Below, piece by piece: positions 143 to 23,937 of a DNA stretch of 36,009 bases. The notes under the pieces are model-generated. The model did no database searches and was not told the DNA's origin. It worked only from the letters and a program-made list of their open reading frames with translations. The stretch lies in contig NZ_JH165061.1 in assembly GCF_000227315.1 (NCBI RefSeq), positions 1,243,715-1,279,723 on the forward strand, in the 5' to 3' direction. The position numbers and the translations under genes are program-made. The stretch's first letter is position 1. The number at the start of each line of letters is the position of its first letter. Source of the DNA: Peptoniphilus indolicus ATCC 29427. Lineage in GTDB: Bacteria > Bacillota > Clostridia > Tissierellales > Peptoniphilaceae.

Positions 143-158
143 ATTTGACATATCAATT
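143..158 (+). promoter_or_regulatory. Candidate FabT-type operator overlapping the -35 box
   Basis: The sequence ATTTGACATATCAATT is an imperfect palindrome with half sites TTTGA and TCAAT around a 4-base centre. It resembles the TTTGA/TCAAA palindromes bound by the MarR-family fatty-acid repressor FabT in streptococci. It covers the -35 hexamer, so a bound repressor would block RNA polymerase. A FabT-like protein is encoded at the far end of the same operon (10059-10529). The site is seen in the sequence; its use by that protein is inference. Confidence 0.55.
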
Positions 159-173
159 ATAGTGTAATAGAAT
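145..173 (+). promoter_or_regulatory. Promoter of the acc-fab operon
   Basis: A perfect -35 hexamer TTGACA (145-150) is separated by 17 bases from TAGAAT (168-173), a 5/6 match to the sigma-A -10 box. Transcription would start near 180, leaving a leader of about 35 bases before acpP. No other convincing promoter or terminator is seen until after the marR gene, so this promoter probably serves all 13 genes. Confidence 0.8.
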
Positions 174-214: not shown

Positions 215-442
215 ATGACTTTTGAAGAATTAAAAAATTTAATTTGTGAGAATTTTGGAACTGAAATGGATCAAATAACAGAGGAAGCTAATTTACAAGA
301 TGACCTTGGATTAGATTCTCTAGACGCTGTAGAACTTTCAATGGCTATAGAAGAAAATTATAATGTTGAAATTCCGGATGAGGATTTTGCAAATTTTATA
401 ACTGTTGGAGATGTATTTAAGTATATTAACAGTAAAAACTAA
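215..442 (+). CDS. acpP: Acyl carrier protein
   Basis: This 75-residue acidic protein carries the growing acyl chain on a 4'-phosphopantetheine arm during type-II fatty-acid synthesis in the cytosol. The attachment serine is S35 in the signature LGLDSLDAVEL. Length and acidity are normal for the family. ATG 215 is chosen because the purine-rich GGGGGAT at 202-208 sits at proper Shine-Dalgarno distance; the in-frame TTG at 200 would overlap that site. It is the first gene of the operon, and its TAA stop overlaps the next ATG (TAATG), so accB translation is likely coupled to it. The protein also supplies acyl donors to phospholipid synthesis. The identification is firm. Confidence 0.96.
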   Translation: MTFEELKNLICENFGTEMDQITEEANLQDDLGLDSLDAVELSMAIEENYNVEIPDEDFANFITVGDVFKYINSKN

Positions 443-903
443 TGGAAAAGTACTTAGAACTTACTAAAAGTTTAATAAAAGAGTTTGATAACTCAAAAAG
501 TAGTTCTCTAGAAATGAAGATAGAGAATTATTCTTTGAGTTTAAGAAAAGAAGATTTCAGATATTATAAGACTGAAAATTTTGAATCTCAACAAGTTGAG
601 GTTAGCGGAGTAAATAATGTTGAACCTACTGTTGAGGTTATGGATAAAGAGAATAAAGGGGAAGAGATAAAATCACCTTTGGTGGGAGTATTTTATTCTT
701 CTAAAGACCCTGAGTCTAAACCTTTCGTATTTGAGGGTAAGCAAGTTAAAAAAGGAGATGTAATTTGTATTTTGGAATCTATGAAGATGATGAATGAAAT
801 TAAATCTCCTTTTGATGGAATTATAAAAAAAGTTTGTTGCAAGAATGAGGAACTTGTTGAATTTGAGCAAGTACTTTTTATCTTGGAGAAAATAAATGCT
901 TAA
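442..903 (+). CDS. accB: Biotin carboxyl carrier protein of acetyl-CoA carboxylase
   Basis: The 153-residue protein has a low-complexity N-terminal half and a C-terminal biotinyl domain (about residues 74-152). The biotin-accepting lysine is K115 in ESMKMMNEI, preceded by the usual hydrophobic strand VICIL. Carboxybiotin on this protein shuttles between AccC (biotin carboxylation) and AccDA (transfer to acetyl-CoA). The start ATG overlaps the acpP stop and has no clear Shine-Dalgarno site of its own, which points to translational coupling. The end overlaps accC by 8 bases. No biotin ligase gene is present in the window. Confidence 0.95.
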   Translation: MEKYLELTKSLIKEFDNSKSSSLEMKIENYSLSLRKEDFRYYKTENFESQQVEVSGVNNVEPTVEVMDKENKGEEIKSPLVGVFYSSKDPESKPFVFEGKQVKKGDVICILESMKMMNEIKSPFDGIIKKVCCKNEELVEFEQVLFILEKINA

Positions 904-2275
904 AAAATTATTGATAGCAAATCGTGGAGAAGTTGCACTAAATATTTTAAGAAATTGTAGAGAGTTGGGAATAGAAACAGTGGTTGTGTACTCAAATGTA
1001 GATAAAGAGCAACCAGCTGTCTATTTAGCTGACCAAGCTGTATGCATTGGAGCGGGGAAGAGTCAATCTTCATACTTAAATGAGTCTAATATTTTAATGG
1101 CTGCATTAGAAACAGGATGTGATTCAATACATCCTGGATACGGGTTTTTATCTGAAAAGGGAGATTTTGCAGATAAAGTTGAAAAATGTGGCTTGAAATT
1201 AGTTGGACCAAGTTCTAATGTAATGAAGACAATGGGAGAAAAGATATCTTCAAAAAATTTGATGATATCAAATGGAGTTCCAACTGTTCCGGGGTTTAAT
1301 GAGGAAATAAAAAGTGAAAAAGATTTAATTGATGCTGCCGAAAAAATAGGATTTCCAATTTTACTCAAGGCTTCTGCTGGTGGCGGAGGCAAGGGAATGA
1401 GAAAGGTTTCTAAAATTGAAGAGTTAGTTTCTGCATGGGAATTGACAAAGAGAGAAGCACAAGCATCATTTTCAAATGACACTATTTACATGGAAAAGTT
1501 TATTGAAAATCCAAGACACATAGAAGTGCAGATACTTGCTGATTCATATGGAAATGTAGTGCATCTTTTTGAAAGAGAGTGTAGTTTACAGAGAAACAAT
1601 CAAAAAATACTTGAAGAAGCACCGTGTATATTTCTAAGTGAAGATTTATTGGAAAGAATAAGAATGGCGGCTGTGAATTGTGCTAAGGCTTGCAAGTATG
1701 AGGGAGCGGGTACTGTAGAGTTCATAGTGGATAAAGATGAAAAATTTTATTTTATGGAAATGAACACAAGACTTCAAGTGGAACACGCAGTTACTGAGAT
1801 GATAACTGGAATTAACATAGTCAAGGAACAATTAAAGATTGCATCTGGGTTACCACTTTCTATCAAACAGAGTGATGTAAAAAAAGAAGGACACTCAATA
1901 GAAATAAGAGTTAATGCTCAAGATCCTTTAAATAGTTTTCAACCTCAATGTGGAGAAGTGAGTTTCTATTTACCGCCTGGGGGAATGGATACAAGGTTTG
2001 AATCTTCTCTATATAAGGGAGCTAAGATTTTACCTTTTTATGACCCAATGGTTGCCAAACTCATCGTAAAAGATAAGACACGCCTAGGCACTATAAAGAA
2101 AATGAGAAGAGCGATAGAAGAGACCATAATTGATGGAGTTAAAACAAATTTAGGTTTCCAATATGCTGTTTTGCACGACAAAGATTTTATAAGAGGCAGA
2201 ATTAATACAGGCTATTTAAGGGAAAAAGAAGAGTCATTAGTTGAGGCAATGAGAAGTATAGAAAAAGGTGAGTAG
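896..2275 (+). CDS. accC: Biotin carboxylase subunit of acetyl-CoA carboxylase
   Basis: The 459-residue ATP-grasp enzyme carboxylates the biotin on AccB using ATP and bicarbonate. Visible motifs are HPGYGFLSE at 79-87, the glycine-rich ATP lid GGGGKGMR at 162-169, and the catalytic EMNTRLQVEH at 288-297, all at the positions expected from E. coli AccC. The length is about 10 residues above the common 447-450, through a slightly longer C-terminus. The start lies inside the end of accB (8-base overlap) and the TAG stop abuts the accD ATG, so the three genes are tightly coupled. Confidence 0.97.
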   Translation: MLKKLLIANRGEVALNILRNCRELGIETVVVYSNVDKEQPAVYLADQAVCIGAGKSQSSYLNESNILMAALETGCDSIHPGYGFLSEKGDFADKVEKCGLKLVGPSSNVMKTMGEKISSKNLMISNGVPTVPGFNEEIKSEKDLIDAAEKIGFPILLKASAGGGGKGMRKVSKIEELVSAWELTKREAQASFSNDTIYMEKFIENPRHIEVQILADSYGNVVHLFERECSLQRNNQKILEEAPCIFLSEDLLERIRMAAVNCAKACKYEGAGTVEFIVDKDEKFYFMEMNTRLQVEHAVTEMITGINIVKEQLKIASGLPLSIKQSDVKKEGHSIEIRVNAQDPLNSFQPQCGEVSFYLPPGGMDTRFESSLYKGAKILPFYDPMVAKLIVKDKTRLGTIKKMRRAIEETIIDGVKTNLGFQYAVLHDKDFIRGRINTGYLREKEESLVEAMRSIEKGE

Positions 2276-3160
2276 ATGGGAAGTTTAAGTAAGAGGAAAA
2301 ATCTGCTTGATATTGTAAGAAAAGTTAGGATTCCTCATTCAAAAGATAAAAAAGTTGCTAAGGAAATTCCCGATTTATTCAAAGGTTGTAAAAAGTGCAA
2401 AAAAATAATTGAAATTGAAGATTTAAAATCAAACTTATATGTGTGTCCAAATTGTGGTCATCATTTAAAGATATTGGGTGAAGATAGATTTAAATATCTT
2501 TTTGATGAAGGATATGAAAATTTGAAATTCAATTCAAAACACAAAGACCCTATTTCTTTTCCTGATTACGATAAATTAAGAGAGGAACAGAGACATAAGT
2601 CTGGTTTAGAGGAAGCAATTTCTATAGCTAAAGGCACTATTAAAAATATTAAAGTTGTCATAGCTGTTCTTGAACAGGATTATTTAATGGGAAGCTTAGG
2701 AACTTTTGTTGGAGAAGAACTGACTTCTATGTTTGAATATGCAATGGCGGAAAAGTTGCCTGTAATAATTTTTTCGTCAAGCGGTGGAGCTAGAATGCAA
2801 GAAGGCATTTTTTCACTTATGCAAATGGCAAAGACAGCAGCCGTTATAAATGAATTTTCAAAAGAGGGATTGTTGTACATAAGTGTGCTCACTAATCCAA
2901 CAATGGGAGGGGTTAGTGCAAGTTTTGCAGGCTTAGGAGATATTATTATAGCTGAACCAAAAGCATTGATAGGTTTTGCTGGACCAAGAGTAATAGAGCA
3001 AACTGTTAGACAAAAATTACCTGAAGGTTTTCAAAGAGCTGAAAAACTTGAAGAATGTGGTTTTATAGATTTAATTTGTCCAAGAGATAGACAAAGAGAA
3101 GAAATTTATAAAATTTTAAAGTTACATGAAAAAACAGGAGCTAGTTATGAGCGTATATGA
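2276..3160 (+). CDS. accD: Acetyl-CoA carboxylase carboxyltransferase subunit beta
   Basis: The 294-residue protein begins with a basic tail and a four-cysteine zinc ribbon (C38, C41, C57, C60), then the crotonase-like carboxyltransferase domain with the SSGGARMQEG motif and the glycine-rich GGVSASFAGLGD segment. With AccA it moves the carboxyl group from biotin to acetyl-CoA to give malonyl-CoA. ATG follows directly on the accC stop. Its last 14 bases overlap the start of accA, and a good AGGAG for accA (3136-3140) lies within its coding sequence, as expected for subunits made in equal amounts. Confidence 0.96.
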   Translation: MGSLSKRKNLLDIVRKVRIPHSKDKKVAKEIPDLFKGCKKCKKIIEIEDLKSNLYVCPNCGHHLKILGEDRFKYLFDEGYENLKFNSKHKDPISFPDYDKLREEQRHKSGLEEAISIAKGTIKNIKVVIAVLEQDYLMGSLGTFVGEELTSMFEYAMAEKLPVIIFSSSGGARMQEGIFSLMQMAKTAAVINEFSKEGLLYISVLTNPTMGGVSASFAGLGDIIIAEPKALIGFAGPRVIEQTVRQKLPEGFQRAEKLEECGFIDLICPRDRQREEIYKILKLHEKTGASYERI

Positions 3161-3915
3161 AATTGTAAAAAAATGCCAGGTCCGATAAAAGAATTAGAAC
3201 TATAGAATTAGTGGAAAATATTTTTGAAGATATAGTCTATTTAAAAGGAGACCGTAGTTTTGGAGATTCTCGTTCTATTATAGGGGGCATTGGTAGTTTC
3301 GAAGATATTCCTATAACATTTATTGGAATAGAAAAGGGAAATGGTGTGGAAGATGGTGTCAAAAGAAATTTTGGTATGCCATTACCGGAGGGTTATCGTA
3401 AAAGTATGCGACTTATGCGCCAAGCAGAGAAGTTTAGAAGACCTATAATTACATTTGTAGATACTCCTGGAGCATATCCTGGGATTGACGCTGAAGAAAG
3501 AGGACAATTTGAAGCGATAGCAAGCAGTCTTAAATTGATGGCTTCGCTCACTGTGCCCGTAATTACATTTGTAATAGGTGAAGGAGGTTCAGGAGGGGCT
3601 CTTGCACTTTCAGTAGCAAATAAAATATATATGTTTGAAAATGCAATTTATTCTATTTTATCACCTGAAGGGTTTGCCACAATTCTATGGAAAAACGCAG
3701 CTCTTGCAGATAAAGCTTCTGAGATTATGAAGATAACTTCAAAAGATTTATATGAATTTGGAATAGTTGATGAAATTGTACGAGAAAGAAATAATATGCC
3801 TGATTATATGCAAATTAAAAAGCTGATAAGTGAAGAACTCAGCAGAACTAATTTTATGACAGCTGAGAATTTACAAAGAGAACGTTATGAAAAGTTCCGT
3901 ATGATAGGGAGATAA
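3147..3915 (+). CDS. accA: Acetyl-CoA carboxylase carboxyltransferase subunit alpha (one-base frameshift near the start)
   Basis: Partner of AccD in malonyl-CoA formation. The natural start is ATG 3147, with AGGAG 7 bases upstream, giving MSVYEIVKK and then a stop at 3186-3188. The continuing frame, from about 3175, reads ARSDKRIRTIELVENIF and then LKGDRSFGDSRSIIGGIG, a textbook AccA N-terminus. One base too many in or beside the A7 run at 3167-3173 explains the break. Further motifs are GAYPGIDAEERGQ and GEGGSGGALAL, the oxyanion-hole region of carboxyltransferases. The corrected protein is about 255 residues, normal for Firmicutes AccA. A shorter frame from GTG 3211 is open but lacks a ribosome site and the first 20 residues. 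Sequencing error is likelier than loss of an essential gene. Confidence 0.9.
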
Positions 3916-3916
3916 G

Positions 3917-4810
3917 ATGGGACTAAAATTTTTAGATATAAAAAAATTAGATTTAGAAAATAAAGTTGAAAATGAATATTTTACAAAGATTTTAGATACT
4001 TCTGATGAATGGATAAAGACTAGGACAGGAATATCGTCAAGATATTTTACAAAGATGTCTGTGGCTGAAATGGCTGTTGAATTAGCTAAGAAATTAGATT
4101 TTGATAGAGAGAATATTAAACTTGTTTTAGTTGCATCTTTTACATCAGAGAGAATTTTACCTTCGTTGGCAGGGTTTATAAATGAAAAACTTAATTTGAA
4201 TAAAGATTGTCTTTCTGCAGATATCAATATGGCTTGTACAGGATTTGTGGGGGCAATGGTATTAGCAGAAAGATTTTTAAGAGATGGGGAATGTGCGCTC
4301 TTAATAGCTGCTGAGAAAATATCAAGTGTTTTAGACTTTAATGACAGAACTACAGCTGTGTTATTTGGAGATGGTTGCGCCGGTGCAGTTGTTCAAAAAA
4401 ATAATAAGTTATGGGTAAGTGATGAAAAAACTTATGGAAATGAAAATGCATTAGCTATGGAAAAAGGAAATTTCGTTGAAATGCAAGGAAAAGAAGTATA
4501 TAGATTTGCAGTTGATAAGGTTCCAAGATCTATAGAGGCTCTATTTGAAAAGTTAAAAATTGAAAAAAAAGATATTGATTATATTTTTGCGCACCAAGCT
4601 AACAAGAGAATTTTAGAGCAAGTTTCACAAAAACTTAGTTTGGGAATGGATAAATTTAAAGTTAATGTGAATGAGTATGGAAATACTTCGGCAGCTTCAG
4701 TTCCAATTTTACTATCTGAAAATAAAGAGTGTTTAAAAGATGGGGATAAGTTAATTTTTTCAGCATTTGGAGCAGGTCTTAGCATCTGTTCAGTGCTAAT
4801 GGAGTGGTAA
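3917..4810 (+). CDS. fabH: 3-oxoacyl-ACP synthase III
   Basis: This enzyme condenses a short acyl-CoA with malonyl-ACP to start each fatty acid. The Cys-His-Asn triad is complete: C107 in NMACTGF, H226 in AHQANKR and N256 in EYGNTSAAS. The characteristic DTSDEWIKTRTGI is at 28-40. At 297 residues it is some 20-30 shorter than common FabH proteins, and the usual glycine-rich GTGSYLP stretch at the N-terminus is replaced by charged residues (DIKKLDL), so it is a divergent but catalytically complete member. It starts one base after the accA stop and ends one base before fabK. Confidence 0.93.
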   Translation: MGLKFLDIKKLDLENKVENEYFTKILDTSDEWIKTRTGISSRYFTKMSVAEMAVELAKKLDFDRENIKLVLVASFTSERILPSLAGFINEKLNLNKDCLSADINMACTGFVGAMVLAERFLRDGECALLIAAEKISSVLDFNDRTTAVLFGDGCAGAVVQKNNKLWVSDEKTYGNENALAMEKGNFVEMQGKEVYRFAVDKVPRSIEALFEKLKIEKKDIDYIFAHQANKRILEQVSQKLSLGMDKFKVNVNEYGNTSAASVPILLSENKECLKDGDKLIFSAFGAGLSICSVLMEW

Positions 4811-4811
4811 T

Positions 4812-5738
4812 TTGAATATAAATAAGTTATTAAATATAAAGTATCCTATATTACAAGGTGGAATGGCGCATGTTGCAACTGGAGAATTTGCAGCTTGTAT
4901 TTCAAATTCAGGAGCGATGGGAACTATAGGCTCAGGTGGTATGACTCCTGAGATACTTAGAAGGGAAATTGAAATATGCAAATCAAAAACGGATAAACCA
5001 TTTGCAGTAAATCTTATGATGTTAAGACCGGATATAGATGAAATGGTAGAGATTATAGTTGAGTCCGAAGTAAAAGTTGTAACTATAGGGGCGGGAAGTC
5101 CAAGTAAATATATGGAAACTTTTGACAAGGAAGGAATAACTGTCTTACCTGTAATATCTTCTCCTGTGCAAGCTAAGAGATTGTCTAAGTTTGGATTAAA
5201 TGGAATTATAGCTGAAGGAATGGAAGCAGGCGGTCATATTGGAGAGATGACATCAATGGTGCTTATTCCACAAGTAAAAGATGAGGTTGATATTCCAATT
5301 ATTGCGGCTGGGGGAATAGGTTCCGGGAAGCAAATGCTTGCGGCTGAAATCTTAGGCGCGATAGGAGTTCAAATAGGAACGGCATTTTTATTTACTGAGG
5401 AGTGCCCAATTCACGAAGAGTATAAGAGAGCGCTTATAAAATCAAGTTCATCGAAAGTAACTACGGTTGGTCATATAAATGGACTTCCAATGAGATTATT
5501 GAAAAATAATATGACAAGAGAATATAAGCAACTTGAAAAAAATGAATTTAACATAGACGTATTAGAGACATTTACTGTAGGAAGACTTAGAAGAGCTGTT
5601 GTTGATGGAGATGTAAAAGAGGGTTCTTTAATGACAGGATACACAGTTGGGCAATATGATAAATTGATGCCGGCAAAGGACTTAATTGAAAAGCTTATGA
5701 GCGAATATGAAGAGGCAAAGAAATGTCTATTAAAATAA
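4812..5738 (+). CDS. fabK: Enoyl-ACP reductase II (flavin-dependent)
   Basis: This 308-residue FMN TIM-barrel protein reduces enoyl-ACP with NAD(P)H in the last step of each elongation cycle. It shows the N-terminal IKYPILQGGMA motif, the phosphate-binding IIAAGGIGSG, VQIGTAFLFTEE, and the conserved histidine H142 in GMEAGGHIGE, matching the FabK catalytic histidine region. Its place between fabH and fabD supports FabK over nitronate monooxygenase. The start is TTG 4812, one base after the fabH stop, with GGAGTGG just upstream; no in-frame ATG gives the complete N-terminus. No FabI gene is seen. FabK-only organisms are known to tolerate triclosan. Confidence 0.93.
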   Translation: MNINKLLNIKYPILQGGMAHVATGEFAACISNSGAMGTIGSGGMTPEILRREIEICKSKTDKPFAVNLMMLRPDIDEMVEIIVESEVKVVTIGAGSPSKYMETFDKEGITVLPVISSPVQAKRLSKFGLNGIIAEGMEAGGHIGEMTSMVLIPQVKDEVDIPIIAAGGIGSGKQMLAAEILGAIGVQIGTAFLFTEECPIHEEYKRALIKSSSSKVTTVGHINGLPMRLLKNNMTREYKQLEKNEFNIDVLETFTVGRLRRAVVDGDVKEGSLMTGYTVGQYDKLMPAKDLIEKLMSEYEEAKKCLLK

Positions 5739-6766
5739 AAGATAAATTAATGAGCATACCAATAGTACAAGGGGGTATGGGCATAGGAATTTCAATGGGC
5801 GAGTTAGCGGGGACAGTTGCTGCTGAAGGTGGAATGGGAACAATATCTTTCGTTAACTGCGGATATATGGAAAGTGATTTTTTTAAAAATCCTATGGAAG
5901 CTAACAAGAGAAGTTTTTTAAGAGAAGTAAAAAAAGCAAAAGAAATTGCAAATGGCAAGGGCATTATTATGGTCAACATAATGCACGTGGTGAATAACTT
6001 TGAAAATTATTTGAAGTTTATAAACGAAACAGAAGTTGATGGTGTAGTAGTTGGCGCGGGATTGCCTCTTGAACTACCTGAGTTTATAGACAATAAGAAA
6101 ATAATAGCTCCGATTATATCTTCTGCAAGAGCTCTAAATATAATTATAAAAAAATGGCTGAAGAAATATAATAGAAAACCTGATTTTATAGTTTTTGAAG
6201 GGCCAGAAGCTGGAGGACACTTAGGGTTTAAAGTAGAAGATTTAAATACAGATATATTTAAAGAACTGAGTGAAATTTTAAAAGTAAAAAATCAATTTGA
6301 AGAACATATACCACTTTTTATAGGTGGTGGCTTTGGAACTAAAGAGCATTTTGAAAAAGCACTTGAAGAAGGTGCTGACGGAGTTCAAATAGGAACTGGA
6401 TTTTTGTTTACAGAAGAATCTTCGTTAGATAGAAGAGCTAAAGAAAATTTATTGAACTCACATAATCAAAACAAAGTTGGTGTAGAAGTAATAAAAAGTC
6501 CAGTTGGACTTCCAGCTAGAGCTATTGGTACAGAATTTGTTGAATATACTGTTAAAAATAGATTTCCTTCTAAGCACTGTGTGAATTGTATATCTACGTG
6601 TGAACCGGCAAGTACACCTTATTGCATAAATGAGGCTTTAATTAGAGCGGTTAAAGGTGATTTTAAAGAAGGATTATTTTTTTGTGGAACAGATATTAAA
6701 AATATAAAAAAAATATCATCTGTAAGAGAATATATAGCAAGTATACTTGGAGGGAAAGATGAGTAA
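5723..6766 (+). CDS. FabK-like / nitronate monooxygenase-family flavoprotein with C-terminal cysteine cluster
   Basis: The 347-residue protein belongs to the same FMN TIM-barrel family as the preceding FabK: PIVQGGMGIGIS at 13-24, GPEAGGHLGF with H166, FIGGGFGT at 199-206, and VQIGTGFLFTEE. It differs by insertions in the barrel and by a C-terminal extension carrying four cysteines, C286, C289, C293 and C301 (CX2CX3CX7C), which could bind a metal or an iron-sulfur cluster. It overlaps fabK by 16 bases and fabD by 8, so it is co-translated with true fatty-acid genes. It may be a second enoyl-ACP reductase, an oxidoreductase supporting FAS, or a nitronate monooxygenase. Family membership is clear; the substrate is unknown. 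Confidence 0.82.
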   Translation: MSIKIKDKLMSIPIVQGGMGIGISMGELAGTVAAEGGMGTISFVNCGYMESDFFKNPMEANKRSFLREVKKAKEIANGKGIIMVNIMHVVNNFENYLKFINETEVDGVVVGAGLPLELPEFIDNKKIIAPIISSARALNIIIKKWLKKYNRKPDFIVFEGPEAGGHLGFKVEDLNTDIFKELSEILKVKNQFEEHIPLFIGGGFGTKEHFEKALEEGADGVQIGTGFLFTEESSLDRRAKENLLNSHNQNKVGVEVIKSPVGLPARAIGTEFVEYTVKNRFPSKHCVNCISTCEPASTPYCINEALIRAVKGDFKEGLFFCGTDIKNIKKISSVREYIASILGGKDE

Positions 6767-7679
6767 AGTAGCAGTAGTATTTGGAGGACAGGGGTCTCAA
6801 TATAGTGGGATGGGAAAAAAGTTATTAGAAAACTATCCTGAAATTTCTAATATATATTCTATTTTGGGAAAAGAATTATCGGATATTTCTTTTAACGGAG
6901 ATATAGAAATTATTTCAAAGACAGACAATTTACAACCTATTATGTTGGCGTTTCAACTAAGTGTAGTTAAATTGATAAAAGAAAATTTAAATATCAGCGC
7001 AACTTGCGGGCTTAGTTTGGGAGAATATGGAGCATTGGTTTTAAGTGAAGTGATTGATGAGAAAGCAGCTTTGGAACTTGTAAAAGTTAGAGGCTTTGAA
7101 ATGAACTTGGCTTCTAATGAAGTTGAGAGTGGGATGTTGGCTGTGATGAATTCAAATGAAGATGATTTGAAAAACTTTATAAATAATAACGAGTTAAAAG
7201 ATAGAGTCTATGTAGCAAACATAAATAGCTCTAAACAAATTGTTATATCAGGAGAAAAAACTGGAATTCAAAAATTACAGATAATATTAAAAGAAAATGG
7301 AATAAAAGCTATTCCACTTAAAGTTAGTGGAGCATTTCACACTCCTTTTATGTATAGTGCGGCAAAAAATTATAAGCAGTTTCTTAAAAATGTTAAATTT
7401 AGCGAGCCAAAGATGGATTACTATCCTAATTTGAGTGGTGAAAAATATAACGGAGAAGAGATGGTAGATTTGTTGTGCGAACAAATAGTATCACCAGTTC
7501 TTTTATATAAGACTTTGAAAAATATGGTTGATGATGGAGTGGATACTTTTATCGAAATAGGTCCAGGAAGTGTAATTTCATCTATAGTAAAAAAAGAATT
7601 TAAGGGAATAGATGTACAGACGTTAAAAAATGACGATGAAATAATAAATTATATTGAGAGGTTTAAAAATGGAGAATAA
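6759..7679 (+). CDS. fabD: Malonyl-CoA:ACP acyltransferase
   Basis: The enzyme transfers malonyl from CoA to ACP. The catalytic serine is S86 in GLSLGEYGA and the histidine is H194 in SGAFHTPFM; the N-terminal FGGQGSQYSGMG is also typical. ATG 6759 gives 306 residues and has GGAGGG at 6749-6754; an upstream in-frame TTG at 6747 would overlap that ribosome site and is rejected. The start overlaps the end of the preceding flavoprotein by 8 bases, and the end overlaps fabG by 11. Confidence 0.95.
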   Translation: MSKVAVVFGGQGSQYSGMGKKLLENYPEISNIYSILGKELSDISFNGDIEIISKTDNLQPIMLAFQLSVVKLIKENLNISATCGLSLGEYGALVLSEVIDEKAALELVKVRGFEMNLASNEVESGMLAVMNSNEDDLKNFINNNELKDRVYVANINSSKQIVISGEKTGIQKLQIILKENGIKAIPLKVSGAFHTPFMYSAAKNYKQFLKNVKFSEPKMDYYPNLSGEKYNGEEMVDLLCEQIVSPVLLYKTLKNMVDDGVDTFIEIGPGSVISSIVKKEFKGIDVQTLKNDDEIINYIERFKNGE

Positions 7680-8400
7680 AAAATTTGCTCTTGTAACAGG
7701 CGCAACAGGTGGAATAGGAAGTGCAATAGCAAGAGAGTTAAAAAATAAAGGCTATTCTTTGATAATACATGGTAATTCAAACGTTGAAAAATTAGAAAAA
7801 CTAAAGTCAGAACTTGGAGAAGATGTATTCACAGTAGTAGGGGATTTATCTAAATTTGATATTTGTAAAAAAATCGTAGATAAATGTTTAGAGATAGCTG
7901 GCAGTATAGCTGTGTTGGTAAATAACGCAGGAATCACTAAAGACAATTTAATAATACGAATGACAGAAGAAGATTTTGTTGAAGTAATAGAAACTAATTT
8001 GAACAGTGCATTTTATCTAACTAAGTTATTGTGCAAATCAATGATAAGAAAAAAATTCGGAAGAATTATAAATATAACTTCGATTAGTGGAGTTCATGGA
8101 AATGTAGGACAGGCTAATTATTCATCTGCAAAAGCTGCAATGATAGGTCTCACTAAGTCAACAGCTAAAGAGTTAGCTTCTAAGAACGTGTTAGTAAATG
8201 CAATTGCTCCAGGATTTATTGAAACTAAGATGACAGATAAGTTGGGAGAAGATACAAAGGCGAAAATACTTACTGAAATACCACTTAGAAGAATTGGACA
8301 GCCTGAAGAAATTGCAAGTGTAGTCAGCTTTTTAGTATCGGATAGTGCAAATTACATAACCGGTCAAGTTATAAATGTTGATGGGGGAATGGGAATATGA
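7669..8400 (+). CDS. fabG: 3-oxoacyl-ACP reductase
   Basis: This short-chain dehydrogenase reduces 3-oxoacyl-ACP with NADPH. The Rossmann motif GATGGIG is at 11-17, NNAG at 85-88, and the catalytic S138, Y151 and K155 are in the standard arrangement. The length of 243 residues is normal. ATG 7669 is chosen because AGAGG lies just upstream; the TTG at 7654 is too far 5'. It overlaps fabD by 11 bases and fabF by 4 (ATGA), indicating coupled translation. Confidence 0.95.
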   Translation: MENKKFALVTGATGGIGSAIARELKNKGYSLIIHGNSNVEKLEKLKSELGEDVFTVVGDLSKFDICKKIVDKCLEIAGSIAVLVNNAGITKDNLIIRMTEEDFVEVIETNLNSAFYLTKLLCKSMIRKKFGRIINITSISGVHGNVGQANYSSAKAAMIGLTKSTAKELASKNVLVNAIAPGFIETKMTDKLGEDTKAKILTEIPLRRIGQPEEIASVVSFLVSDSANYITGQVINVDGGMGI

Positions 8401-9620
8401 GAAGAGTAGTTGTAACGGGAATAGGGGTTCTATGTCCGATAGGAGATGACCAAGTTTCTGTTTTAGAAAATGTTAAAAATAAAATATGTAGTATAGATAA
8501 AATAACACATTATGATACAATAGAGCGAGAGGTAAAACTTGCGGCGGAATTGAAAAATTTTAATGCAGATGAATACTTTGATAAGAGAGAACAAAAGAGG
8601 CTGGACAGAGTTAATCAACTTGGTATAGTCGCAGCTAGAAGAGCTTTAGAAAATGCTAAATTAACTGTTGAAGAAGTAGAGCAGATGAATGCGGGGGTGT
8701 ATGTTTCTTCCGGAATAGGTGGTTTGGGAACTATAGAAAAAGAACACGAAAGAGGAATGAAGAGAGGATTTGATAAAGTTAGTCCTTATTTTATTCCAAT
8801 GGCAATTTCAAATTTAACTGCATCAAACATTGCAATGGATATACACGCCCATGGTTCATGTCAATGTTTTGTTACAGCATGTGCAAGTTCAACTAATGCA
8901 ATAGGAGAAGCTTTTAGAAATATAAAAGATGGGTATGAAGATATTATATTTGCAGGTGGAAGTGAAGCGAGTATAACTGAACTTGGAATAGGTGGCTTTA
9001 CATCTATGAAAGCACTTTCTACATCACAAGACTGTGAAAAGGCTTCTATACCATTTGATAAAGACAGAAGCGGTTTTGTAATGGGAGAAGGTTCTGCAAT
9101 ATTAGTTTTAGAAGAATTAGAGCACGCTAAGAAGAGAAATGCAAATATTTTAGCTGAAATAGTAGGATATAGCACTAATTGTGATGCTTACCATATAACG
9201 TCTCCAGCTCCGAATGGAGAATATGCGGCTATGGCAATGGAACGAGCAATTAGAGAAGCAGGCATAGATAAAAAAGATGTTGATTATATAAATGCGCATG
9301 GCACTTCAACAGATTTGAACGACAAGTATGAAACTGCTGCTATAAAAAAGGTTTTTGGCGAAGACACTGATGTATTTGTTTCTTCATCTAAATCTCAAAT
9401 AGGACACTTACTTGGAGCTTCTGGAGCAGTTGAAACAGCTATAAGTATTTTTTCTATGAATGAAAACATTCTTCCACCTCTTGTAAATTACAAAAATTTA
9501 GACCCTGAATGTAATTTAAATTTTGTAACGGATATAAATGAGTATGAAACAAAATATATGTTGAAAAATTCTTTGGGATTTGGTGGACACAACGCCACTT
9601 TAGTTATAAAGAGGTATTAA
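8397..9620 (+). CDS. fabF: 3-oxoacyl-ACP synthase II
   Basis: This is the elongating condensing enzyme. The Cys-His-His triad is present: C162 in VTACASSTNAIG, H301 in NAHGTSTDLND and H337 in GHLLGASGAVE. The length of 407 residues is normal. The stretch before the active cysteine (IHAHGSCQCFVT) has two extra cysteines compared with common FabF proteins. It starts in an ATGA overlap with fabG and stops one base before fabZ. No fabB is seen, so this is probably the only elongating synthase of the operon. Confidence 0.95.
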   Translation: MRRVVVTGIGVLCPIGDDQVSVLENVKNKICSIDKITHYDTIEREVKLAAELKNFNADEYFDKREQKRLDRVNQLGIVAARRALENAKLTVEEVEQMNAGVYVSSGIGGLGTIEKEHERGMKRGFDKVSPYFIPMAISNLTASNIAMDIHAHGSCQCFVTACASSTNAIGEAFRNIKDGYEDIIFAGGSEASITELGIGGFTSMKALSTSQDCEKASIPFDKDRSGFVMGEGSAILVLEELEHAKKRNANILAEIVGYSTNCDAYHITSPAPNGEYAAMAMERAIREAGIDKKDVDYINAHGTSTDLNDKYETAAIKKVFGEDTDVFVSSSKSQIGHLLGASGAVETAISIFSMNENILPPLVNYKNLDPECNLNFVTDINEYETKYMLKNSLGFGGHNATLVIKRY

Positions 9621-9621
9621 A

Positions 9622-10041
9622 ATGAAACTAAATTTTGAAGAAGTAAAAAATATTTTGCCACATAGAGCACCTTTTTTAATGGTAGATAAAATAGTTGAGT
9701 TAGAAGAGGGCGAAAGTGCTGTAGGAATTAAGTGTGTTAGTGGGAATGAGCCATATTTTCAAGGGCATTTTCCAAACTATGCAGTGATGCCAGGGGTATT
9801 GCAAGTTGAAACGGTAGCTCAAGTTGGAGCAGTAGCTATTTTGATTAATGAACCAGGGAAAAACGCTTTTCTTGGTGGAATAAAAAAAGCTAGGTTTTAC
9901 AAGCAAATTGTTCCTGGAGATTTATTAGAAATTCATTGTAAAATAATAAATAAGAAAGGGAATGTAGGCTTTGGAGAAGGATACATAATTGTAGATGGCG
10001 AGAAAGCTATGAGTTGTGAGATTTCTTTTGCAATTGCCTAA
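9622..10041 (+). CDS. fabZ: 3-hydroxyacyl-ACP dehydratase
   Basis: A hot-dog-fold enzyme of 139 residues that dehydrates 3-hydroxyacyl-ACP to the trans-2-enoyl form. Visible signatures are PHRAPFLMVD at 13-22, catalytic H49 in GHFPNYAVMPG and E63 in LQVETVAQ. As no fabA or fabM is seen here, how unsaturated fatty acids are made cannot be read from this window. The gene follows fabF by one base and is separated by 17 bases from the regulator gene. Confidence 0.95.
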   Translation: MKLNFEEVKNILPHRAPFLMVDKIVELEEGESAVGIKCVSGNEPYFQGHFPNYAVMPGVLQVETVAQVGAVAILINEPGKNAFLGGIKKARFYKQIVPGDLLEIHCKIINKKGNVGFGEGYIIVDGEKAMSCEISFAIA

Positions 10042-10058
10042 AATATAGGGAGGCTATT

Positions 10059-10529
10059 ATGTTAAATGAAAAATTTTCAGAAGTTTATGATAAATTTAAG
10101 TTGAATTTGTATAAGAATATGTTCCGAAATTTGCAGGATAGAGAAGCAACATTAACTGCTACAGAAACATTTACAATTGAGGTTATACATGCACTAAAAA
10201 GACCAAGAGTGAGTGATTTAACTGAGTTTTTAGAAATGTCTCATCCTAATATTGCTTATAAAATAGCTTCCTTAGTTAAAAAGGGATATTTGAAAAAAAT
10301 TCAATCTGAAGAAGACAAGAGAGAATTTTATTTAGAAGTAACTCAAAAGTTTTATGATTATTATGAAATGAAAGAGGAATATATAAACATAGTCATGGAC
10401 AGACTAGAAGAGAGGATAAGCGAGGAAGATTCTAAAAAACTGGAAGCTCTTTTAACTATAATGAGCGAAGAGTTAATGCCTGAGGTAACAAATTTTATAG
10501 CAAAACATGAAAAAAATGATACAAAATAA
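10059..10529 (+). CDS. MarR-family regulator, probable FabT-like repressor of fatty-acid synthesis
   Basis: The 156-residue protein has a MarR-type winged helix: a helix-turn-helix at about 50-80 (VSDLTEFLEMSHPNIAYKI) followed by the wing LKKIQSEEDKREFYLEVT, flanked by long dimerisation helices. Spacing and wing resemble streptococcal FabT, which represses the fab genes when bound to long-chain acyl-ACP. Being last in the operon, with a palindrome at the operon promoter (143-158), suggests autoregulatory feedback. It has a good ribosome site (GGGAGG, 10047-10052) and may be translated independently. The MarR fold is clear; the FabT role is inference from context. Confidence 0.8.
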   Translation: MLNEKFSEVYDKFKLNLYKNMFRNLQDREATLTATETFTIEVIHALKRPRVSDLTEFLEMSHPNIAYKIASLVKKGYLKKIQSEEDKREFYLEVTQKFYDYYEMKEEYINIVMDRLEERISEEDSKKLEALLTIMSEELMPEVTNFIAKHEKNDTK

Positions 10530-10534
10530 AACAA

Positions 10535-10571
10535 AAAGGACATTTTAAATTTTACTTTTAAAGTGTCCTTT
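10535..10571. terminator. Bidirectional terminator between marR and galU
   Basis: The arms AAAGGACATTTTAAA (10535-10549) and TTTAAAGTGTCCTTT (10557-10571) pair over 15 bp with one wobble around a 7-base loop. A-rich sequence precedes and T-rich sequence follows, so it can end the fab operon on the plus strand and galU on the minus strand. Confidence 0.9.
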
Positions 10572-14783: not shown

Positions 14784-15722
14784 ATGGTTGAATTTGCACA
14801 CAAGTCCGTTTTATTAAATGAGACGATAGATCTTTTGAATGTAAGAGAAGGTGGCATATATGTGGACGGCACTATAGGTGGAGCTGGGCACTCATGTGAA
14901 ATTCTTAAACGCATTGGAAACGATGGTCTACTAATAGGTATAGATCAAGATACCAATGCACTTAAAAAAGCTGATTCAGTGCTTAGTAGAATAGGTTCAA
15001 ACTATAAACTATTTCATTCCAATTATAAAAATTTTGAAGATATTTTAAATGAGTTAAACATAGATAAAGTTGATGGAATTCTATTGGATTTAGGCGTTTC
15101 TTCATACCAATTTGATGAAGGCAGTAGAGGTTTTTCTTATAATTATGATGCTAGATTGGATATGAGAATGGATACTACATCTAATTTAAGTGCTTGGGAA
15201 ATTGTAAATGAATATTCAAAAGAAGAACTTACTAATATAATAAAAGATTATTCTGAAGAAAGATTTGCATCTAAAATAGCGGATAATATAGTTAAAAAAA
15301 GAAATATAAAGTCAATAGATACAACTTTTGAATTAGTTGAGGTAATAAAAGAGGCGATACCTTTAAAATTTAGAGTAAAGGGTGGCCATCCTGCAAAGAA
15401 GACTTTTCAAGCTCTTAGAATTGAGACAAATGATGAACTTGGAGTGTTGAGAAGTGCATTAGATAGTATGATTAACAGATTGAATAAGAATGGAAGAATA
15501 GCAATAATATCTTTCCATTCTCTTGAAGATAGAATTGTAAAAGAAACTTTTAAATACAGATTTTTAGATTGTATATGTCCACCCGAAAGTCCTGTATGTA
15601 TTTGTGATAAAAAAAGAGATATTGAAATAATTACGAGAAAACCGGTAGTGGCTACTGAAAAAGAATTGAAAGAAAATAATAGAGCCCACAGTGCTAAGTT
15701 GAGGGTGGCAGAAAAAATATAG
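14784..15722 (+). CDS. rsmH: 16S rRNA (cytosine-1402 N4) methyltransferase
   Basis: The 312-residue SAM-dependent enzyme methylates C1402 of 16S rRNA in the ribosomal P site. Motifs include HKSVLLNE, the SAM-binding VDGTIGGAGHS, LLDLGVSSYQFD and the C-terminal ISFHSLEDRIVK. A cysteine-rich insert (CICPPESPVCICDKK) near the C-terminus is common in Firmicutes versions. It is in its normal place, immediately after mraZ. Confidence 0.96.
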   Translation: MVEFAHKSVLLNETIDLLNVREGGIYVDGTIGGAGHSCEILKRIGNDGLLIGIDQDTNALKKADSVLSRIGSNYKLFHSNYKNFEDILNELNIDKVDGILLDLGVSSYQFDEGSRGFSYNYDARLDMRMDTTSNLSAWEIVNEYSKEELTNIIKDYSEERFASKIADNIVKKRNIKSIDTTFELVEVIKEAIPLKFRVKGGHPAKKTFQALRIETNDELGVLRSALDSMINRLNKNGRIAIISFHSLEDRIVKETFKYRFLDCICPPESPVCICDKKRDIEIITRKPVVATEKELKENNRAHSAKLRVAEKI

Positions 15723-15735
15723 AGGTATTGTATAG

Positions 15736-16152
15736 ATGTCTGAGCAAAGAAAATTTAGACAAGTAAAATTGAATAGCAGACAATTAAAAGTCAAAAAGAG
15801 AAAAAATTTGGCAAAACCATTGTATATGACGATAGCTATTGTTATTATAATGTTCTTAGGGGTTTCTATAGCATATTCTCATTTATCAAGCATAGATAAA
15901 GATATAATTGCAAAAGAAAAAGAAATTTCTGATTTGAAAAAGACTAAATTAGCTTTGGAAGCAGAAGTTAAGAGTATAAAAAGTTCTACTGAAATACAAG
16001 ATGAAGCAATGTATAAATTAGGAATGGTATATCCATCGCAAGACCAAATTGTTTATGTAGATATAAGCGAAAATAAAAGACAGTTGGATGTGAATCATAA
16101 TGTTTTTTTGAGTCCAATTTTATCGGTGCTTAAATCCTTCACTAAGGATTAG
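15736..16152 (+). CDS. ftsL: Cell division protein FtsL
   Basis: The 138-residue protein has a very basic cytoplasmic tail (1-30), one transmembrane helix at about 31-49 and an extracellular coiled coil of charged heptads (about 53-85), followed by MYKLGMVYPSQDQIVYV, a motif typical of FtsL. It bridges FtsQ/DivIB and the FtsW-FtsI synthase at the septum. Sequence conservation of FtsL is low, so the call rests on topology and position between rsmH and ftsI. Confidence 0.88.
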   Translation: MSEQRKFRQVKLNSRQLKVKKRKNLAKPLYMTIAIVIIMFLGVSIAYSHLSSIDKDIIAKEKEISDLKKTKLALEAEVKSIKSSTEIQDEAMYKLGMVYPSQDQIVYVDISENKRQLDVNHNVFLSPILSVLKSFTKD

Positions 16153-16164
16153 GGGGAAATATAA

Positions 16165-18574
16165 TTGAAAGTAAATTTAAAAAGAGCTCGTGAGATAAAT
16201 AGTTCGCAAAAGAATGCGAATTTTAAGATAAGTTTGATTTTTCTCGGGATGGCTCTTTTCTTTTTTATAATAATAATTAGAATTCTGTACATAAATATAG
16301 TAAGAGGAGAAGAACTAACCAGAAAGGGATTAAATCAGCTAACGAGTACAGAAATAGTTCAGGCTGACAGAGGTATAATTTATGACAGAAATAATAAAGA
16401 GTTAGTAGTAAATATAACCAAGTCAAATGTATACTATAATATGGATTTTAAAAGAGGAGATACTTACTCAGATAAGGAAATAAAAGAAAAAAGAAAAAAT
16501 TGAAGAAGATTCTTTGGCTATTTCAAAAGTACTGAAAGTTCCTAAAGATGAAATAAAGAAAAAAATGGTTGGAGATAAGGTAGTACAAATTGTGTCTAAT
16601 ATAGATAGAGATACAGCAAGTGCATTAAGAGAACTCAAGATAGAAAAACTGTCTTTAGATGATGTGCCAAGGAGATTTTATCCTAATGGAAATATATTAT
16701 CTAAAGTTTTGGGGTTTGTAACTGATGATGGAAATGGACAATACGGTCTTGAATCTAGTTATGATGGAATAATGAGTGGAATAGCAGGGAAAAATATTTC
16801 TATAAAAGCTAACACTCGTATGCAAATCCCACTTACAGACGAAGAATCTTATGCTCCAAAAGAAGGTCAAAACTTAATTCTTACAATAGATGACAATATA
16901 CAAAAATTTGCTGAAGAAGCAGCTGAAAGATCGAGAATAAAGCATAATGCCGAAGAAGTCAATATAATAGTTCAGAGTACCAAGACCGGCGAAATTCTTG
17001 CCATGGCATCTTCACTAAGCTATGATGCGAACAACCCTAAATCTCCTGTTGGAGATGCTCAAAAGAAGGATTGGGATTTGCTTACTAAAGATGAAAAAGT
17101 CGTAGCTTGGTACAAAAACTGGACAAATTTCAATGTGAGCTCTCAGTATGAACCGGGTTCTACATTTAAATTGATAACTGCAGCAGCAGCACTTGAAGAA
17201 GCTACAACATATCCATTAAAAGAATATTATTGTCCTGGACAGATTAAATTTTTTGATAAAGTAATAAAATGCGCTTCAAAAAATAACGGCACTAAAACAA
17301 TGCAGCAAGCTGTAGTTGAATCATGCAATATTACACTTATGAAAATGGCAGAAGAATTAGGATCTGAAAAATTTTATAAGTATATAAAAGCATTTGGATT
17401 TGGAGAAAAGACAGGAATAGACCTTCCTGCAGAAGCAGTTGGCTCAATTCCAAATAATTATAAAGATATTTCAGAAATAAGACTTGCAACTATGAGTTAT
17501 GGGCATGGTATAGCTATAACTCCAATACAACTCATCAATTCTGTATCTGCAATAGCAAATGGAGGAGATTTAAAAGTTCCAAGAGTTGTAAAAAGACTAG
17601 AAGATAGAAATAGAAATGTTTTAAAGAAGTTTGATTCTGTTTCCAAGAGAAAGGTAATATCTTCTGAGACGTCGAAGACAATGTTGGATATCATGTATAA
17701 GGTTGTAGAAGATGGAACTGGTAAAAAGGCTAAGGTAGAAGGTTATAAAATTGGTGGTAAAACCGGTACAGCATATATACCTTCAAAAGCTGGAGGATAT
17801 GAAGATGAATACATTTCATCATTTATAGGAGTTGCTCCAGTAGATAACCCTGAAATAACAGTTCTTGTAATAGTTCAAAAACCTAAGGGGGATTTCTTTG
17901 CGGCAACAGTTGCCACTCCGGCAGCTAAAGAAGTTTTCAAAAATTCTTTAGAATATTTAGGGATAGAGAAGACTCAACCTATAGATAATAAAGATAAAAA
18001 AGACGATCCTATATTGATTCCAAATTTAAAAAATATGTTAGTAAGTGATGCTGGAAGAGAATTAGTAGATTTAGGATTTAAATTCAACACTAATCAAAAT
18101 TCTCTGTTTGATGCAAGTATAGTTTTAAAACAAGAACCAAAGGCAGGAACATTGGCAAAACCAGGAACTATCATAGATTTATATGTTTCTAATGACAAAG
18201 AAAAGTATATGCCTGATTTAATAGGTAAGAGCAAAGAAGAAATAGAGTTAGTTTTAAAAGCTATGGATGTAAGATATAATATAAAAGGGACTGGAGTTGT
18301 TTTAGGACAATCAGTATTTGCAGGAACAAAGTTAAAAACTGATAGTAAAATTGAATTTGAAATGAGTAATAGCGAAGAAAAGATAGACACTAAACTAAAA
18401 GATGAAGAAATTTCATCCAACTTAAAAGAAACAAGCAACAAAGATACAGAAATTAAAAATCGTGTTAAAGAAAAAGATGATAAATTAAATTCAAAAGTTA
18501 AGAAGACCAATGATTCAGAGAAGATAAAAAAATCTGAAAATAAAGATAATAAAACAGATAAATCTGTGAGGTAA
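16165..18574 (+). CDS. ftsI: Division-specific penicillin-binding protein 2 (FtsI / SpoVD type) with PASTA domains; one-base frameshift
   Basis: Septal peptidoglycan transpeptidase. The order is a basic tail, a transmembrane helix at about 21-45, the dimerisation domain, and the transpeptidase with STFK at nt 17159-17170, SCN at 17321-17329 and KTGT at 17759-17770, then two PASTA repeats (about nt 18010-18370) and a lysine- and glutamate-rich tail of about 70 residues. The start is TTG 16165 with AGGGGG upstream. The frame breaks at the A6-G-A6 stretch 16487-16499: one A too many. Reading on gives KIEEDSLAISKVLKVPK, which joins correctly. The corrected protein is about 802 residues. PASTA repeats are typical of Firmicutes PBP2B/SpoVD/PBP2x. 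Confidence 0.92.
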
Positions 18575-18579
18575 GTTAA

Positions 18580-19587
18580 ATGCAAAGTATCAAAAATAAC
18601 ATGTGGCTGATAGTAGTTTGTATTACAGTCGCAGCAGCTTTTCCAATTTGGGGAGCTATATCAATAGTAATTTCTCTTATATTAGGGTATTATTTAATAC
18701 CTATTTTAAGAAGTTTAAAGGCAGGTCAATCCATTAGAGAAGATGGACCTCAAACACATTTGGTAAAGAGTGGAACACCTACAATAGGTGGGGTGATTTT
18801 TTTATTCACCATAATTATAGTGAATGTACTGGCGAGAAATTTAAATCTAGACTCTTTAATGATTTTATTCTCAACATTGGCTTTTGGTGCGGTAGGGTTT
18901 ATAGATGACTATATAAAAGTTGTAAAAAAAAGAAATTTAGGACTTACAGCAAAACAAAAATTATTTTTGCAAATATTTGTGGCTTGCGTACTTTTAGCTT
19001 ATCAATATAGTGGCGAAGCAGGTTCTACAGATATAATAATTCCAATAAGCATGAGTAGAATAAATTTACCTGTATTTTTATATATACCATTTATAATATT
19101 TGTGGTTGTAGGTACTGTTAACTCAGTTAATTTAACAGATGGACTTGATGGACTTTCAAGTGGAGTTACTATAATTTGTATGACTTTCTTTGGAGTGGTT
19201 GCTTATAAGTTCCAAAATATGGGAATAGCCATGTTTTGTTTGATATTTGCAAGCGCACTGGTAGGATTTTTATTTTACAATAAATATCCGGCGAAGGTGT
19301 TTATGGGGGATACGGGTTCGCTAGCTCTAGGCGGAGCTGTAAGTGCAATAGCAATTTTATTGAACTTACCTTTGATTTTACCTATAGCAGGTGGAATATA
19401 CTTTATAGAAACTCTTTCTGTAATAATTCAAGTAGTTTCATTTAAGACAAGAGGAAAGAGAGTATTTTTGATGTCTCCATTACATCACCACTTCGAACAG
19501 TTGGTATGGAAAGAAACAAAAGTAGTTGCAGTATTCTGTGCAGTAGAATTACTTTTATGTGTAATTTCATATTTTATGATTTTTTAA
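18580..19587 (+). CDS. mraY: Phospho-N-acetylmuramoyl-pentapeptide transferase
   Basis: This integral membrane enzyme transfers phospho-MurNAc-pentapeptide from UDP to undecaprenyl phosphate, making lipid I. The 335 residues contain about ten transmembrane helices, the acidic motifs VGFIDDYIKVVKKRN and NLTDGLDGLSSG, KVFMGDTGSLALG, and the histidine motif PLHHHFE near the end. It starts 5 bases after ftsI, with GAGGT as ribosome site in the end of ftsI. The length is normal. Confidence 0.96.
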   Translation: MQSIKNNMWLIVVCITVAAAFPIWGAISIVISLILGYYLIPILRSLKAGQSIREDGPQTHLVKSGTPTIGGVIFLFTIIIVNVLARNLNLDSLMILFSTLAFGAVGFIDDYIKVVKKRNLGLTAKQKLFLQIFVACVLLAYQYSGEAGSTDIIIPISMSRINLPVFLYIPFIIFVVVGTVNSVNLTDGLDGLSSGVTIICMTFFGVVAYKFQNMGIAMFCLIFASALVGFLFYNKYPAKVFMGDTGSLALGGAVSAIAILLNLPLILPIAGGIYFIETLSVIIQVVSFKTRGKRVFLMSPLHHHFEQLVWKETKVVAVFCAVELLLCVISYFMIF

Positions 19588-19598
19588 TGAGGGTATAA

Positions 19599-21980: not shown

Positions 21981-21982
21981 TT

Positions 21983-23058: not shown

Positions 23059-23075
23059 TTGGGAAGCGAAAATAT

Positions 23076-23852: not shown

Positions 23853-23865
23853 TTTTCTCTAAATA

Positions 23866-23894
23866 TTGACTATTTGAAGATTATTTCATAAAAT
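23866..23894 (+). promoter_or_regulatory. Internal promoter for ftsZ
   Basis: TTGACT (23866-23871) and TAAAAT (23889-23894) are 5/6 matches each, spaced by exactly 17 bases. Transcription would begin near 23901, about 37 bases before ftsZ. This would allow ftsZ to be expressed above the level of the rest of the cluster, as is usual in other bacteria. Confidence 0.7.
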
Positions 23895-23937
23895 ATAAAT
23901 AAGTTTATGATAAAGACGTTTTAATAGGAGGATGTGT

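Follow-up and report, generated by a model that had tools for sequence, protein, structure and literature searches.

Helicobacter pylori FabX (HP0773; PDB 7e1q, 9lt5) is described as an enzyme of unsaturated fatty acid (UFA) synthesis, a dehydrogenase/isomerase of acyl-acyl carrier protein (acyl-ACP) that contains flavin mononucleotide (FMN) and a [4Fe-4S] cluster. According to that work it dehydrogenates decanoyl-ACP with O2 as acceptor and isomerises the product independently of O2, its cluster ligands are C300, C304, C308 and C320, and its Fe-S subdomain occupies the place of the NAD(P)H-binding part of FabK (enoyl-ACP reductase II); homologues of >50% identity are counted there in 1650 species, most of them living anaerobically (PMC8626469). 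The Neisseria gonorrhoeae homologue NGO1024 (~36% identity in that paper's comparison) is reported to be essential for anaerobic UFA synthesis, and a FabX of Bacteroidales is described in the same paper (PMC11300592); the gonococcal enzyme has been called UfaA (PMC4549310). Fusobacterium nucleatum is reported to have a FabX homologue, C4N14_08920, besides FabK in its genome, with cluster cysteines and FMN residues kept (PMC11091888). In Clostridia, where the anaerobic UFA route was first proposed, Clostridium acetobutylicum makes UFA, its only FabZ is described as having no isomerase activity, and in 2009 the enzyme responsible for the double bond was called 'novel and unknown' (PMC2700279). 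Here we analyse a fabX/ufaA-like gene within the fatty acid (acc-fab) operon of Peptoniphilus indolicus ATCC 29427, on a 36,009-nucleotide stretch of contig NZ_JH165061.1 (hereafter the window). Within the NMO family of flavoproteins its product most likely belongs to the FabX/UfaA branch, with a function in UFA synthesis. The role of this family (UfaA in 2011, FabX in 2016/2021) and its architecture are already known, and the interest that remains lies in the embedding in a fab operon, the census across genomes, and a mechanism without O2. By its title, the paper of Isabella and Clark (2011) already proposes UfaA for obligate anaerobes without FabA, and its abstract reportedly names UfaA a widespread lineage.

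Sequence and predicted fold both place the 347-amino-acid product closest to FabX. Pfam assigns it to NMO (PF03060, E 1.2e-39), and its best sequence match in the PDB is H. pylori FabX at E 1e-57, compared with 4e-11 for FabK. Once the FabX entries are set aside, which themselves also carry the name 2-nitropropane dioxygenase, the nitroalkane/2-nitropropane dioxygenase entries match at E 1e-09 or weaker. We predicted the structure with AlphaFold2 from a 44-row alignment (mean predicted local distance difference test score, pLDDT, 93). Searching with this model, Foldseek ranked five FabX entries first, with query-normalised template modelling (TM) scores of 0.85-0.90 and FabK at no more than 0.73. 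VIA-align 2 superposed the model on FabX with Z 46.3 (root-mean-square deviation 2.0 over 338 residues), on the best FabK with Z 35.7 over 292 residues, and on PDB entries labelled nitronate or nitroalkane oxidase with Z of at most 34. The C-terminal part aligns with the Fe-S subdomain of FabX both in sequence and in predicted structure. FabK, the direct operon neighbour, shares the FMN site and, as the sequence-only reading had recognised, the barrel fold and the catalytic His. That reading had also labelled the gene a second FabK, and this label does not hold. The neighbour is only 30% identical, has no cysteine tail, and carries His at the position of S259 and V where FabX-type proteins have K or R (R136, a helix residue, in the window protein); with the NCBIfam FabK model TIGR03151 the fabX-like protein scores 92.9 bits against a cut-off of 453.1, below which the window's own FabK also falls.

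Residues were compared in a 16-row alignment (query plus 15 relatives) and an 84-row alignment (query plus 83 relatives). The four cysteines that align with the FabX cluster ligands are present in 16/16 and 84/84 rows; conservation of these cysteines in homologues had been set beforehand as a test. The cysteine motif was likewise found in 80/80 named loci, which are not a random sample because they are the best 80 of at least 581 confirmed matches. Spacing differs between the systems, CX2CX3CX7C in the window, just as first read from the letters, versus CX3CX3CX11C in H. pylori FabX, and locus L213, which like L225 fell outside the motif pattern, has the four cysteines as CX2CX4CX7C. Judged from this alignment, C286, C289, C293 and C301 very probably hold a [4Fe-4S] cluster, in keeping with the earlier suggestion that a metal or Fe-S centre there could pass electrons to the flavin. 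It had not been noticed at that stage that H. pylori FabX, as described, already has this architecture (PMC8626469), as does gonococcal UfaA by citation. The catalytic His (H166) and its Ser partner S259, equivalent to FabX Ser273, occur in all 84 rows. FabX contacts its FMN through N99, E175, Q240 and T243, which correspond to N85, E159, Q222 and T225 of the window protein; the E159 and Q222 positions are kept in 84/84 rows, N85 in 83 with one gap, and the FabX T243 position holds T or S in 16/16. The basic residues with which FabX contacts ACP, K152 and R164, are R136 and K148 here. At the former position every one of the 84 rows has R or K; at the latter the 84 rows divide into K/R (63), H (13), N (4), D (1) and gaps (3). 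Along the acyl tunnel, FabX residues G20, I21, V44, M87, I290, I302, L306 and F320 are kept or similar, and G50 is N45.

The gene is a member of a 13-gene operon, acpP-accB-accC-accD-accA-fabH-fabK-X-fabD-fabG-fabF-fabZ-marR, X being the fabX-like gene. As the sequence-only reading had stated, it overlaps both neighbours: its start (5723) lies 16 bases inside the end of fabK (5738), and the fabD ATG (6759) overlaps its own end by 8 bases (ATGAGTAA). These overlaps suggest that its translation may be coupled to that of fabK and fabD. We searched the assembly (95% complete, 98 contigs) for other routes to UFA. The operon's fabZ is the one FabA/FabZ-type gene genome-wide. A profile search of the whole genome found no FabN-like second FabZ, and no gene of the FA_desaturase family, the one desaturase family searched, was found genome-wide. 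The single crotonase-family gene sits in a thiolase-crotonase-3-hydroxybutyryl-CoA dehydrogenase (butyrate-type) cluster. FabM was considered for this lone crotonase and ruled out by the cluster context and by its best match, short-chain-enoyl-CoA hydratase, just below the cut-off. FabM was sought only through the crotonase family, and FabM, FabQ and FabI had no dedicated model search; as far as this reaches, the remark that no fabA or fabM is seen holds for the genome, and the idea of a role in UFA synthesis in their place is probably right.

Among the 25 genomes of the host's family, 8 carry a fabX-like gene, and in all 8 (the window genome and seven others) it lies between fabK and fabD. 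A fabZ-type gene accompanies it in 8/8 carriers and is lacking in 16/17 genomes without it (Fisher 8e-6); the exception, G015, with a fabZ-type but no fabX-like gene, is a 58-bit match. Elsewhere in the order the fabX-like gene was found in 8/16 genomes, in one of them (G039) only as a shorter match of 39%. For the class we used an even, class-wide sample of 293 genomes and counted positives by hand above a cut of 200 bits, placed where the scores drop from 256 to 131 bits, with fabZ presence in the carriers scored by eye; a match of 210.7 bits is the second fragment of a split gene in G197. By this count 74/293 genomes carry a fabX-like gene, with a fabZ-type gene in 73/74 carriers versus 146/219 non-carriers. 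In G145, the carrier without a fabZ-type gene, the contig that holds the fabX-like gene is 5 kb long. Four of the 74 (G106, G125, G126 and G194) match at 256-277 bits with frames of 319-329 amino acids and form a shorter, more distant group. Two of their loci, L226 and L229, like L047, encode FabX-like proteins of 309-327 amino acids that end in CX2CX3CX4C, and these genes have no fab neighbours; the other two, the weaker L228 and L230, were grouped with them. Proteins with this tail possibly have another activity.

Linkage to fab and acc genes was scored in 70 regions of the class sample, that is, the 74 carriers minus G000 and G009, then minus L228 and L230, which had no blastp match meeting the fabX-like rule. 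A region counted as linked if at least three kinds of fab/acc gene lay within ~8 kb on each side, contig permitting; for the 80 named loci the distance was up to 9 kb and all matches of at least 30% identity were used. Linkage was found in 27/70 class-sample regions, against a chance expectation of <1% per locus (a rough figure for a 3 Mb genome), and in 43/80 named loci, again the best 80 of at least 581. The 43/70 regions unlinked by the rule include some in which the contig ends. The linked genes stand in several arrangements: fabK-X-fabD, upstream of fabH, at the acc end of the operon, fabZ-X-fabH, and divergent. A quick tree covered 86 rows; L225, truncated by the end of its contig, and L227, where the gene is split, stand outside both this tree and the 84-row counts. 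We labelled arrangements on it by hand, assuming that of L224, whose contig ends before the fabK position. A single branch (support 76, not starred) separates the fabK-X-fabD genes from the rest, and H. pylori FabX sits on a long branch with unsure placement. Given the starred branches, 'upstream of fabH' must have changed at least four times and linkage (linked versus unlinked) at least eight times, so the association with fab genes has been gained or lost more than once. In one genome (G310, locus L192) the fabX-like gene lies between fabZ and fabH and is the only match in the class-sample search, so this genome apparently lacks FabK.

We propose that the enzyme would carry FMN in its TIM (triosephosphate isomerase) barrel, with a [4Fe-4S] cluster closing the acyl tunnel, and would introduce a cis double bond at position 3 of an acyl-ACP with about ten carbons, giving cis-3-decenoyl-ACP. 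For the window enzyme we infer these two cofactors, an acyl-ACP substrate and a cis-3 product. The trans-2-decenoyl-ACP made by FabZ would be isomerised to cis-3 with no net redox change, and FabF would then elongate the product to UFA. FabK would compete for the same trans-2-decenoyl-ACP, and the ratio of FabK to FabX would set the ratio of saturated to unsaturated fatty acids. H. pylori FabX is reported to need O2 for dehydrogenation (PMC8626469), whereas the window gene stands between fabK and fabD in a host that, to judge from its relatives and its butyrate-type genes, is probably a strict anaerobe. If so, O2-dependent dehydrogenation cannot be the route in such an O2-free fermenter. Isomerisation is favoured because FabK adjoins as the competing branch, and because overexpression of FabX is reported to have partly relieved FabK inhibition in F. 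nucleatum (PMC11091888), which is easier to understand if enoyl-ACP is consumed. We put redox-neutral isomerisation of trans-2-decenoyl-ACP as the mode of this enzyme at roughly an even chance. Carried over to strictly anaerobic Clostridia in general, the FabX/UfaA fold would be a redox-neutral trans-2/cis-3-enoyl-ACP isomerase translationally coupled to FabK, with the cluster serving structure or flavin poise and not O2 chemistry, an extension that we advance tentatively and at slightly under an even chance. Two of the systems introduced above were likened to the window gene by description and not by sequence. N. gonorrhoeae UfaA is an NMO-family protein of anaerobic UFA synthesis, unlike the window enzyme in that its host is a facultative anaerobe. 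C4N14_08920 comes from an anaerobe that also uses FabK, but is reported to share its operon with the gene of a hypothetical protein (Fn0663) and not to belong to a fab operon (PMC11091888).

Several observations weigh against this interpretation. Identity to H. pylori FabX is 38%, FabX tunnel residues F74/Y75 lie in a loop absent from the window protein and have no counterpart in 16/16 rows, and Y277 is replaced by L. Among genomes of the order that fall outside the family, the co-occurrence with fabZ is uninformative, since a fabZ-type gene is present in 8/8 genomes with and 7/8 without the fabX-like gene, and only 1/8 carriers there (L040) shows fab linkage. The many class-sample non-carriers that have a fabZ-type gene indicate that the class has other solutions besides the fabX-like gene. 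More than one FabA/FabZ-type gene occurs in only 8 of the 219 fabZ-positive class-sample genomes, so having one FabZ is not in itself a sign of a fabX-like gene, and the co-occurrence counts are uncorrected for kinship. The window's own subclade (the window, L033, L034, L222 and L223) has lost the CDA motif and has G at FabX R244, where 74/79 other rows have R. These losses could mean that the subclade's substrate or reaction has shifted, for example in chain length. Its long branch (0.80 on the quick tree), a locally FabK-like stretch and the departure of at least 3/5 subclade rows at 12 positions where 85% or more of the other rows agree (the R244 position is one of them, and so is P264, where the window keeps the common residue) are in line with such a shift. 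The cysteines, His, Ser and FMN contacts are nevertheless kept, and the five open reading frames (ORFs) are uninterrupted at 340-347 codons, and we regard a redirected enzyme as unlikely.

A further point against isomerisation is that the electron acceptor of the Neisseria homologue, which works anaerobically, is called unknown (PMC11300592), a wording that favours dehydrogenation over a redox-neutral reaction. The enzyme might then backtrack as FabX does, dehydrogenating decanoyl-ACP and isomerising the product. FMN would then be reoxidised by way of the [4Fe-4S] cluster, the acceptor being something other than O2, for instance ferredoxin, flavodoxin or a quinone-like carrier. That the FabX catalytic and cluster residues are kept agrees with this. 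No electron-carrier gene was recognised in the window operon (three acc genes unscanned), and the relatives' operons were searched with window genes only, a search that could miss a carrier there; an adjoining FabK, moreover, would run the reaction backwards at the expense of NAD(P)H, and FabX overexpression in F. nucleatum is reported to have relieved, not worsened, FabK inhibition (PMC11091888). We consider backtracking an appreciable possibility, clearly short of an even chance. The sequence-only reading had also offered a second enoyl-ACP reductase. Such an enzyme would work alongside FabK on trans-2-enoyl-ACP, with electrons from ferredoxin or similar passed through the Fe-S cluster. The FabK-family fold and histidine speak for it, as does the partial resistance to a FabK inhibitor reported on overexpression of the F. 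nucleatum homologue (PMC11091888), but fabK adjoins intact, S259 is the FabX-type Ser in place of FabK's His, the Fe-S subdomain of FabX is described as standing where FabK binds NAD(P)H (PMC8626469), and the characterised relatives serve UFA synthesis. This proposal has accordingly lost ground, and we think it improbable. Very improbable indeed is a co-transcribed nitronate monooxygenase or other detoxifying flavoenzyme. The generic Pfam name NMO would suit one, but the O2 requirement of nitronate monooxygenases, the lower Z of their deposited relatives, the fab linkage in varied arrangements and the co-occurrence with fabZ all speak against it. We thus concur with the earlier rejection of a stray nitronate monooxygenase, and nothing was found in support of the detoxifying role once suggested.

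The FabK-like stretch of the subclade, GVQIGTGFLFT(E/K)ES (window 6380-6424), is closer to FabK's GVQIGTAFLFTEEC than to other FabX-like proteins, which mostly have TRF...ECD there. Over this segment fabK and the fabX-like gene have 35/45 bases in common in the window, 37 in L033 and 33 in L034, compared with 28/45 in the contrast locus L035. Sequence exchange between the adjoining paralogues is possible; it stays a hint because four gene pairs are too few to conclude.

An operon-embedded fabX/ufaA-like gene is a concrete candidate to fill the old UFA gap in Clostridia, and its presence in a probable anaerobe raises the question of FabX-type catalysis without O2. If the isomerase reading is true, it would provide the UFA enzyme that has long been sought in many Clostridia, and a single operon would set the branch point between saturated and unsaturated products. 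FabX-like proteins with the cysteine motif also turn up in loci of gut genera, for example Blautia and Dorea. Identity to FabX is 36-44% in the 16 rows measured, with Blautia and Dorea outside those rows. FabX has been promoted as an H. pylori-specific target, its homologues being described as rare among bacteria associated with humans (PMC8626469; PMC12079444), with homologues counted at >50% identity in the former source. Homologues in Blautia- or Dorea-type loci may bear on the selectivity of drugs against FabX, and the missing F74/Y75 loop may spare FabX-like proteins from FabX inhibitors.

Table 1. Features of the acc-fab operon in the window (positions are those of the window).
Feature	Position	Strand	Basis or remark
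Candidate sigma-70 promoter of the acc-fab operon, TTGACA-17-TAGAAT	145..173	+	11/12 consensus matches
acpP, acyl carrier protein	215..442	+	Family models
accB, accC, accD, accA (acetyl-CoA carboxylase)	442..3915	+	accB by family model; accC, accD and accA presumed, from likeness to such sequences and gene order in relatives
fabH	3917..4810	+	NCBIfam search
fabK, enoyl-ACP reductase	4812..5738	+	TTG start; Pfam and NCBIfam TIGR03151
fabX/ufaA-like gene	5723-6766	+	ATG start, 347 amino acids; NMO-type barrel, FabX-type FMN contacts, C-terminal four-cysteine subdomain
Codon of H166	6218..6220	+	Aligned with FabX catalytic His182
Codons of C286, C289, C293, C301	6578..6625	+	Aligned with FabX [4Fe-4S] ligands C300, C304, C308, C320
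fabD	6759..7679	+	Family model; start read from sequence
fabG, fabF, fabZ	7669..10041	+	Family models; fabZ the sole FabA/FabZ-type gene found in the genome
MarR-family regulator	10059..10529	+	Best model FabT, 42.8 bits against a cut-off of 200
Candidate terminator hairpin, operon end	10535..10571	+	Terminator-like sites in the window 9, in shuffles 3.4

The candidate promoter is among the three best of 44 promoter-like sites in the window, and since this total is no higher than in shuffled sequence (43.7), we argue for it from its position. The operon's clear FabK (4812-5738) scores 362.6 bits with TIGR03151, below the cut-off, so that this model alone would leave it unnamed. A MarR-family gene ends the fab operon in the window and in 7/15 relatives' regions, the seven with fabK-X-fabD, and by sequence it is possibly a FabT-like regulator. 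Farther downstream, 14784-25020 holds ordinary division and cell-wall genes, encoding a MraW family protein, a PASTA penicillin-binding protein, a glycosyl transferase of family 4, a Mur ligase, a FtsW/RodA family protein, a glycosyltransferase 28, a protein with an FtsQ-type POTRA domain, and FtsZ.

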